Of a stretch of DNA of 64,000 bases, positions 21,922 to 27,042 are shown piece after piece. Source of the DNA: Colwellia sp. BRX10-3 (GTDB lineage Bacteria > Pseudomonadota > Gammaproteobacteria > Enterobacterales > Alteromonadaceae); the NCBI RefSeq assembly GCF_014077505.1, contig NZ_JACGWA010000010.1, forward strand, positions 62,001 through 126,000, in the 5' to 3' direction. A model generated the notes under the pieces. The model made no database searches and was not told the origin of the DNA. It saw nothing but the letters and a program-made list of their open reading frames with translations. Position 1 is the first letter of the stretch, and each line of letters starts with the position of its first letter. The translations under genes were made by a program, and so were the position numbers.

Positions 21922-22632
21922 CTACTCTGCAAGTTCTTTTAATACTTCATCTTTTAACTCAAACCAAAGTTTACCTGACTCAACACCGTATTTTCTAACC
22001 GCATAAACCGACTCGTCAAACTGGTTAGCTTCAGCTAATTCAATCAGCTTTTTATAATATGTTCGTGTTATTTCTCGACCACGAGGATGAGCAAAATATA
22101 AACTACCTAAGCGTGAGTACAAACCTCGAAAGCCGTTCAAAATTAATAAGTAAATAGAGTTACCTGAGGCAACGACTAATTCTTTATTGAGTTTGTAATC
22201 AAATTCAGCAAAAGCTTCGCCAGTATCTTCAACATCTTCAATAGCTGACAATAACTCGATAGTCTTTTCTGGATTGTTTTTAATCGCACCACGAACATAT
22301 ATCGCACTAATATTGGTGCGCGCCGACAGTAGATTTTCAACTAAGTCAGGAATACCTTCTTGATCAAGCTGCGCTAATGTTTCAAGAATGTTAAGGCTGG
22401 ATGTTTCCCAAAAGTTATTAACTTTTGTTGGCTTACCATGTTTTATGGTCAACCATCCGTCGCGTGCTAAGCGCTGAAGCACTTCTCTTAATGTAGTTCT
22501 TGTGACGCCAATAAGTTCTGATAATTCACGTTCAGCGGGTAAAATAGTACCCGGTGGAAATCCACCATTCCAAATAGATTCAACAATATACTGCTCGGCA
22601 AATCCTGCTGGACTGTGCGCTTTTATAACCAT
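21922..22632 (-). CDS. fadR: Fatty acid metabolism regulator FadR
   Basis: 236-residue GntR-family repressor/activator of fatty acid degradation and synthesis, responding to long-chain acyl-CoA. The N-terminal winged helix ([49 protein letters not shown]) is nearly the E. coli sequence; the C-terminal FadR-type ligand domain follows. I start at [15 protein letters not shown] (ATG 22632) by analogy with E. coli; an in-frame GTG at 22647 is possible. In enterics nhaB-dsbB lie next to fadR; here about 5 kb of other genes intervene. Confidence 0.95.
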
Positions 22633-22667
22633 GGGGATCCACATCACTTAGAGTTAACTTTAATTGA

Positions 22668-24360: not shown

Positions 24361-24395
24361 TATTTATTCTCTTTAATTAAAATTGATATGACACC

Positions 24396-24430
24396 TAATT
24401 AGATGCCAAAATAATTAAATTTAGATGCAA
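24396..24430 (-). promoter_or_regulatory. Promoter-like module facing the serine hydrolase gene
   Basis: Read on the minus strand this is TTGCATCTAAAT, about 12 bp, then GGCATCTAATTA, ending 35 bp before the hydrolase ATG. It matches the module at 24545-24579 at 28 of 35 positions, including the first 12 bases and both ATCTAA cores, which are spaced 22 bp apart in each. The spacing equals a -35 to -10 distance. Confidence 0.55.
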
Positions 24431-24544
24431 AATATTTTAAATTTTATTTTTTGTTTTTATTAATTCAAACAAAATAAATCGGATAGAGTTTGTGCTGCTA
24501 AGTAATTAGGCAGATGTAATAATAATTTAAATAAAAATATTATC

Positions 24545-24579
24545 TTGCATCTAAATCTGATTATCATCGTATCTAAGTA
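24545..24579 (+). promoter_or_regulatory. Promoter-like module facing the ECF sigma operon
   Basis: TTGCATCTAAAT (24545-24556), then GTATCTAAGTA (24569-24579), 40 bp before the ATG of the DUF6249-like gene. It is an inverted near-duplicate of the module in front of the divergent hydrolase. The ATCTAA at the -10 position resembles the TCTAA-type -10 of some ECF promoters (inference). Confidence 0.55.
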
Positions 24580-24619
24580 ATATAGAAATTAATGTGAACT
24601 TAAAGAAAGTGAGAAAAAT

Positions 24620-25550: not shown

Positions 25551-25847
25551 ATGAATACTAACGATGATTCATTTTTAAATTCGTTATTACAATACCATAC
25601 ACGCTTAGTTGATCAGCATTTTGTTGATAATATTATTAACAATATAAAAGCAAAAAATAAGTTTCGGTTAAAGGTTATGGCTGTGGCAATGTTTTTAGCA
25701 TGCTCATTGGCTATTCCTTTGATAGGCAGCATAACTGAAGAGTTTTCTTTATTTAATGCTTTTACGTCATTATCACCTTATATCATTACTTCTTTCTTAC
25801 TTTCGATGGTGGGGTTTTCTGCTTGGTTAACCAATGAAAACTTTTAA
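25551..25847 (+). CDS. Small membrane protein, candidate anti-sigma factor
   Basis: 98 residues: a soluble N-terminal part of about 35 residues (DDSFLNSLLQYHTRLVDQHF) followed by two transmembrane helices (about residues 41-60 and 72-92). Position directly after an ECF sigma gene and this soluble-then-membrane layout are what a minimal anti-sigma would look like; there is no zinc-binding HxxxCxxC motif. AAGGATGCACC precedes the ATG. Confidence 0.6.
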   Translation: MNTNDDSFLNSLLQYHTRLVDQHFVDNIINNIKAKNKFRLKVMAVAMFLACSLAIPLIGSITEEFSLFNAFTSLSPYIITSFLLSMVGFSAWLTNENF

Positions 25848-26304: not shown

Positions 26305-27042
26305 TTATCTATCCCATAGATAATCTGTATGAGAAGTACAAATTTCAGTCAATTCTTTGGCTTCAGCAGGACCTTGGTCGCCATACATTGTTTCGAGGAT
26401 ATGCGCTCTTGTTTTCATCAAGTCTGTATAATTAGCAGCCGACATTGTGAACAGCCGACGATATTTACCACCAACTTGATGGGACAACCAACCCCAAGAT
26501 GATAATTTACCTTTACCTATATTGGCATTATATATTGGCGCCATTACCGTTTTGATAATCTCATCGGCACGCTCTTCTTTTGACATATCACAAATTTCAT
26601 AGACAGAGATAGAAGCTTCAGCTGCCTGCACAGTCTGATTACCGCTTTCTAGCTTCCAAATATAGTCATCATGTGAATTACAGGTTGCACCAAAGACATC
26701 ATTAGGATCGACCTTAGCAGCTTCCAACATTTCACCTATCTTATCTTGCGCCGTAAGTAACTCTCCCATACTCGAAGCAGTATTAACCGTCACTCTACGC
26801 CACTGACCACCAGTATGATGTTTTAAATATGACCAGCTTTTGATCAGTTTATTAGCTACAGCTTTCTCGTAAACTGGTGCCCACTCTTTTTCAACAATAG
26901 CGTCTACATCTTTCTGTTTAGTGGTATCGCATTTAAAATATGTTGCATAGACATAGGTATCGCCCTCCTCTTTATCTTTAGCCTGAAGGCTTGTAGTTTG
27001 AACCAAGAGAAGTGCAAGACTTAACATAAATAGCTTTTTCAT
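26305..27042 (-). CDS. Secreted protein of two tandem repeats, unknown function
   Basis: 245 residues with a Sec signal (MKKLFMLSLALLLVQTTSLQA). The mature protein is two copies of a domain of about 100 residues. KEWAPVYEKAVANKLIKSWSYLKHHTGGQWRR in the first corresponds to MAPIYNANIGKGKLSSWGWLSHQVGGKYRR in the second, and the ends CNSHDDYIWKLE and CTSHTDYLWDR also correspond. Each repeat has one Cys near its start and one near its end, so a disulfide per repeat is likely. The size and pattern suggest dimeric alpha-beta-barrel (ABM-like) folds fused in tandem, which is inference. AAGGA precedes the ATG. Confidence 0.7.
   Translation of the reverse strand: MKKLFMLSLALLLVQTTSLQAKDKEEGDTYVYATYFKCDTTKQKDVDAIVEKEWAPVYEKAVANKLIKSWSYLKHHTGGQWRRVTVNTASSMGELLTAQDKIGEMLEAAKVDPNDVFGATCNSHDDYIWKLESGNQTVQAAEASISVYEICDMSKEERADEIIKTVMAPIYNANIGKGKLSSWGWLSHQVGGKYRRLFTMSAANYTDLMKTRAHILETMYGDQGPAEAKELTEICTSHTDYLWDR

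Follow-up and report, generated by a model that had tools for sequence, protein, structure and literature searches.

The intergenic region that separates a serine hydrolase gene from an ECF sigma factor operon in Colwellia sp. BRX10-3 carries two matching modules in inverted orientation, one reading toward each side (Table 1; the window is the whole 64,000-nucleotide stretch analyzed). We read them as the promoters of a two-promoter regulon in which an autoregulated ECF sigma factor, kept in check by a small membrane protein as its anti-sigma factor, would control its own operon and the hydrolase, and we put the probability of this reading at about 0.87. The presence of the element, its spacing, its conservation, its tracking of the sigma gene and its count of two sites in the genome can be read directly from the DNA.

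Two inverted predicted promoter modules in one intergenic region

The intergenic region spans 259 bp (24361-24619), and its best pair of non-overlapping, inverted and ungapped 35-mers was 24396-24430 with 24545-24579, which agree at 28 of 35 positions. In 300 dinucleotide shuffles of the region the mean maximum was 22.2 and never rose above 27. The original prediction, made from the letters of this DNA, had claimed two inverted 35-base modules with 28 matching positions, which is borne out, as not one shuffle equals it, and the 22-bp offset that it gave for the ATCTAA core was measured on both sides. The start codon that it placed 35 to 40 bp farther on fits the hydrolase gene (38 nt from the second core to the ATG) but not the sigma side (43 nt).

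Table 1. Genes and predicted promoter elements around the intergenic region (positions in the window)
Feature	Position	Strand	Evidence or remarks
Serine hydrolase, beta-lactamase family PF00144, 357 aa	23287..24360	-	Hydrophobic signal-peptide-like N-terminus
Predicted ECF-sigma promoter of the serine hydrolase gene	24399..24430	-	Sequence elements, conservation
Hydrolase promoter, -35 TTGCATCTAAAT	24430-24419	-	
Hydrolase promoter, -10 GCATCTAA	24406-24399	-	ATCTAA core at 24404-24399
Predicted ECF-sigma promoter of the DUF6249-sigma-small protein operon	24545..24576	+	Sequence elements, conservation
Operon promoter, -35 TTGCATCTAAAT	24545-24556	+	
Operon promoter, -10 GTATCTAA	24569-24576	+	ATCTAA core at 24571-24576
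Small membrane protein with DUF6249 (PF19762), 116 aa	24620..24970	+	Hydrophobic segments near 6-24 and within 68-108
ECF sigma factor, 174 aa	24977..25501	+	Sigma70_r2 at 23-88, Sigma70_r4_2 at 115-166 (Pfam)
Small membrane protein, 98 aa, candidate anti-sigma factor	25551..25847	+	Position, size

Ordinary sigma-70 promoters, or a chance likeness in AT-rich intergenic DNA, would be another way to account for the modules. The region is indeed AT-rich and holds six sigma-70-like matches, where 3.9 (standard deviation, 2.5) would be expected from shuffles; two of the six are immediately upstream of the hydrolase module, on its strand (24468-24434). None of the six coincides with a module in both strand and register, the agreement of the modules was never reached by shuffling, and conservation of the specific element extends across genera and phyla (see below); we consider this explanation very improbable. 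A terminator-like stem-loop at 24389-24408 (minus strand) overlaps the -10 element and leader of the hydrolase gene (one found, 0.1 expected from shuffles) and is probably incidental.

In the complete genome search (3.87 Mb in 55 contigs), the pattern GCATCTAA-N13-17-ATCTAA matched two sites, which are the two modules, and its reversed control none. A relaxed pattern again found the two modules alone, with one site in the reversed control. A wider regulon was also sought with a looser pattern and dropped: three sites were found and three in the reversed control, which means that chance dominates at that looseness. Searching the whole genome for the pattern had been proposed with the original prediction, and with tight patterns it yields the two modules only.

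Genes of the locus

The product of the hydrolase gene scored 214 bits against PF00144 (cut-off, 27), and its SxxK (S86, K89) and YxN (Y177, N179) motifs are invariant across nine aligned hydrolases. No model of a named beta-lactamase family stood above its curated cut-off among the best 25 of 47, and the general class C beta-lactamase model gave 80 bits against a cut-off of 415. Because the protein falls so far under the cut-offs of the named models (best 25 of 47), we claim no role in resistance for it.

The sigma factor is an ordinary two-domain ECF protein with regions 2 and 4 only and a short linker. Its best PDB relatives include RpoE (sigma-E), sigma-H and SigW, and sigma70-ECF superfamily was the sole NCBIfam model above cut-off among the best 25 of 88. 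In place of the early ECF hallmark, AAC in the -35 and CGT in the -10, the window has TGCATC and TCTAA.

The sigma gene is flanked by genes for two small membrane proteins. The 98-aa protein has about 40 mostly polar N-terminal residues followed by a hydrophobic segment at 40-58, the only one above threshold; a weaker one near the C-terminus was judged by eye. It had no Pfam family above cut-off, and its profile gave chance-level matches only in the PDB, with no solved anti-sigma factor among them. Position and size make it a candidate anti-sigma factor. Farther downstream, 26305-27042 (minus strand) encodes an exported-looking protein of 245 aa with no Pfam match and a weak NCBIfam match under the cut-off.

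The element is kept before both genes in relatives

The element TTGCATCYAA-N16-NTCTAA, or a near form of it, stands upstream of both the operon and the hydrolase gene at 8 of 8 hydrolase-linked loci, which show three gene orders. The divergent layout, with a module on both sides, is kept in Colwellia sp. DT_21 (L031; sigma 82% identical) and Thalassotalea sp. PP2-459 (L032; 86%). In G015, G006 and G034 (sigma, 53 to 55%) the hydrolase gene follows the operon on the same strand, with the element before both, and in G015 a second hydrolase gene follows the first. G321 has the same layout, and in G179 the hydrolase gene lies upstream of the operon on the same strand; in each of these two the element precedes the hydrolase gene and a near form (9/10) precedes DUF6249. 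The distance between the modules is free: from approximately 114 bp in the window it shrinks to 101 in L032 and to 19 in L031. The hydrolase ORF of Colwellia sp. DT_21 (L031:4231-5460, minus strand) could also begin some 50 codons before the start that gives a signal-peptide-like N-terminus, which leaves its start codon and leader length uncertain.

At all five loci found to have close sigma homologues (L031, L032, L002, L003 and L004) the element precedes both the operon and the hydrolase gene. Loss of the motif beside a retained sigma gene, named beforehand as the outcome that would speak against the prediction, was seen at none of them. When wider flanks were read at 23 loci (window, L031, L032 and L148-L167), 15 had no hydrolase gene adjoining the operon, and in L160 one lies about 4 kb off.

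These comparisons bear on how the pair of modules arose. An inverted duplication might have copied the sigma promoter to the hydrolase gene, an origin that would be compatible with the function proposed here, and the modules of the window agree at 28 of 35 positions with part of the spacer included. In L031 and L032 the core elements alone agree and the spacers differ, so that the word "duplicated" in the heading of the original prediction finds no support; selection on the recognition elements explains the likeness equally well, and we hold a duplication to be unlikely.

The relatives also bear on a different use of the modules, as operators: on each side a DNA-binding regulator would recognize ATCTAA-N16-ATCTAA, a direct repeat whose halves are two helical turns apart. 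Both elements of the window share ATCTAA at the 22-bp offset, and a FadR-like regulator gene lies nearby (21922-22647), though outside the operon. The two elements are no longer alike in relatives, where TGCATCCAAA goes with CTCTAA or TTCTAA and TGCATCTAAA with GTCTAT, to give two examples, and the repeat is not kept outside the clade. The motif tracks the sigma gene, and no operon or hydrolase protein other than the sigma factor has a DNA-binding family above cut-off. Because relatives no longer have the repeat on the -10 side, the direct-repeat model was dropped, and operators of this kind seem to us quite improbable beside two promoters read by the sigma factor.

The motif tracks the sigma gene

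A search of 60 relatives, counting the own genome, found TTGCATCYAA-N16-NTCTAA in four, at eight sites, with none in the reversed control. These four are exactly the genomes with a sigma factor at 54% identity or more, own genome included; they helped to define the pattern, and the count of 4 in 60 is not an independent one. Seven of the eight sites are at the locus. Within the genus the sigma factor is sporadic: close homologues occur in 3 of 17 genomes (own included, and one of them 66% complete), which suggests loss or lateral transfer.

A draw of 394 genomes from the order, own genome included, gave the strict pattern in five and its reversed control in two. DUF6249 matches were present in 28 of the 394, three of them weak (E about 4e-4), and the strict pattern occurred in 4 of these 28 genomes versus 1 of the 366 others (Fisher, 1e-4), or 3 of 27 versus 1 of 366 with the own genome left out (P = 0.001). 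The sole strict site outside the DUF6249 genomes (G323:C52) lies within an ORF, as does the eighth site of the 60-genome set (G006:C4); both were considered as targets, rejected and taken as chance. G123 has its strict site at a hydrolase gene unlinked to the operon, which itself has a near form. A general wider regulon was likewise discarded, a looser pattern giving 3 off-locus sites in 9 operon-bearing genomes versus 6 in 15 others, these 15 being genomes without the operon or without a close sigma homologue (G158, with no DUF6249 match, among them).

Conservation across phyla

The motif was first defined from operon promoters, and the independent parts of the evidence are the hydrolase promoters and the conservation across phyla. 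For the latter, TGCATC-N18/19-NTCTA was scored out of 10 in the 230 bases before DUF6249. From 136 DUF6249-sigma pairs, copies with short or identical upstream sequence were dropped, which left 6 motif-defining loci and 79 others; these 79 are mutually related and do not count as independent tests. A score of 9/10 or better was reached by 43 of the 79 further operons, including some from Alphaproteobacteria and Bacteroidota, against 0.82 expected from shuffles, and a score of at least 8 by 56 (10.3 expected). Ten of the 79 had been seen before the motif was fixed (L005, L033, L035, L037, L038, L040, L043, L044, L049 and L052). Of the 23 loci from the order search that were met after element and spacing had been fixed (L116-L138), 15 scored 9 or better.

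The remaining 36 of the 79 scored under 9/10. Some of these have a diverged element, such as most Caulobacter loci, with CGCCTC and TCTT, and no recognizable element was found before the operon at a few others, such as L034 (6/10), L036, L102 and L137. Most Bacteroidota loci have TGCAAC with GTCTAA, and genus g95 has TCATC in four of five loci. AAC in the -35 was an early ECF hallmark, later described as not defining (PMC8103513, in the part available), and the TGCAAC of the Bacteroidota loci ties the element to the classical AAC of the ECF -35. The recognition helix of the sigma factor reads P-[LVI]-G-[TS]-[VI]-KS in 39 of 41 proteobacterial loci (the search expression missed the other two) and xENT[VI]KSH in 12 of 13 Bacteroidota loci. 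It differs between lineages, as does the element, a parallel that is suggestive only, drawn as it is from few lineages.

In four loci from Hyphomonadaceae, of a Caulobacterales type (L038, L040, L044 and L049), the DUF6249-sigma pair is closely preceded by a second ECF sigma gene, and the gene downstream of the pair is one that we take to be panB-like.

Different hydrolases behind the same predicted promoter

The less expected part is that dissimilar hydrolases of the beta-lactamase fold appear behind the same predicted promoter in different lineages. The locus-linked hydrolases fall into types that are 21 to 29% identical to one another (best BLAST segment): one in the window, L031 and L032 (73 to 83% among themselves), a second in G015, G006 and G179 (40 to 66%) and a third in G034 and G321 (56%). 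In G006 and G015 a better match to the window hydrolase sits elsewhere on the contig of the locus (39% and 38%, respectively), and the locus-linked hydrolases of these two genomes are therefore not its orthologues. In none of the other 59 genomes did the window hydrolase have a close homologue (39% at best), and a 38% relative occurs in G013, a genome without a close sigma homologue. The 15 operon-bearing genomes have 119 PF00144 matches in approximately 54 Mb (rounded sizes), and since this is only about one per 460 kb, the repeated adjacency of a hydrolase gene is unlikely to be chance. How many times the promoter captured a hydrolase independently is uncertain. The strict site of G123 stands 35 to 41 nt before another PF00144 gene (L189:1681-3354); operon and gene are on different contigs, and the gene is a candidate unlinked target.

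Two further observations concern other genes. In G404 and G123, genomes of another family, a like site precedes an exported-looking protein of 266 to 270 aa about 2 kb from the sigma operon (L161:2013-2813, minus strand; L167:7714-8526, plus strand); it had no Pfam family above cut-off and is a possible lineage-specific target. In G257, a site closely like that of the operon promoter (L218:1501, on G257:C7) lies about 350 bases before a putative lipoprotein of 144 aa, and the stretch between them contains, by eye, an apparent decayed sigma-gene fragment.

Comparison with known systems

ECF autoregulation with a tiny regulon is an already known kind of circuit, and among the systems compared the closest in design, as far as the available portion of its description goes, is SigAb-AabA-AabB of Acinetobacter baumannii, an autoregulated ECF sigma factor whose operon encodes small proteins with anti-sigma activity (PMC12153292). 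Three direct targets were recognized there by the authors' criteria, namely, its own operon, relA and an sRNA, and the 107-aa anti-sigma factor was modeled like CnrY (PMC12153292). The window shares with it a predicted autoregulated ECF sigma factor, an operon with small proteins and few targets. The differences are that SigAb reads GTCAAC/CGTT, unlike the TGCATC/TCTAA of the window, that its two extra genes are both downstream of the sigma gene, that its targets include no hydrolase, and that no DUF is named in that text (PMC12153292).

In Cupriavidus metallidurans, CnrH is held by a very short two-helix cytoplasmic segment of its anti-sigma factor CnrY (PMC7406223, in part). CnrY, of class II, and the 98-aa protein, with its approximately 40 residues before the hydrophobic segment, are alike in size only, and the PDB profile search found no sequence link between them. 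From what is available of PMC3464611, bd0880-bd0881-bd0882 of Bdellovibrio are three cotranscribed genes with an ECF sigma factor in the middle. The locus L034, from a Bdellovibrio MAG, has the similar order DUF6249-sigma-small protein, a likeness of gene arrangement alone, and it is the one noted above as lacking a recognizable promoter element; the string GCATCTA in PMC3464611 belongs to a primer. Our literature search found no paper joining DUF6249 to a sigma factor (the single paper that mentions DUF6249 concerns, to judge from its title, a plant gene family), none on an ECF sigma promoter motif with TGCATC and none on ECF sigma factors of Bacteroidetes with TGCAAC. The 2021 reclassification of ECF sigma factors may already contain this group with its motif.

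Proposed mechanism and significance

Each of the two modules would be a promoter of its own, recognized by the RNA polymerase holoenzyme that contains the neighboring ECF sigma factor, with region 4 binding the -35 TTGCATCTAAAT and region 2 the -10 GYATCTAA. One promoter would provide autoregulation by driving the DUF6249 membrane protein, the sigma factor and the small membrane protein, and the operon promoter of the sigma gene does carry the putative target motif. The other would drive the exported serine hydrolase of the beta-lactamase fold. At rest the sigma factor may be tethered to the inner membrane, the 98-aa protein being its most likely holder and the DUF6249 protein a partner or sensor; we infer that an envelope signal would release it and switch on both promoters, no other target having been detected in its own genome. 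A shared regulator, sigma autoregulation and a minimal regulon had all been proposed in the original prediction, and at the level of sequence they are supported by the retention of the element in relatives, by its co-occurrence with the sigma gene, by its association with the operon in several phyla and by the finding, with tight patterns, of two sites only in the genome.

More tentatively, the cassette of DUF6249, ECF sigma factor and small membrane protein could be a single envelope-sensing module of ancient origin that extends from Bacteroidota to Gammaproteobacteria and whose promoter drifted together with the sigma factor (TGCAAC, TGCATC, TCATC and CGCCTC). Several lineages might then have independently taken a hydrolase of the beta-lactamase fold as a dedicated output, perhaps one that destroys the peptide or cell wall signal that triggers the system. 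We hold this broader scenario to be possible, though less likely than not.

The locus gives a testable promoter code for the DUF6249-linked ECF family; it suggests that DUF6249 and the 98-aa protein are regulators and that the output is a beta-lactamase-fold hydrolase. With its two-promoter regulon and a natural series of diverged -35 elements, it would be a compact system for the coevolution of sigma factors and their promoters.
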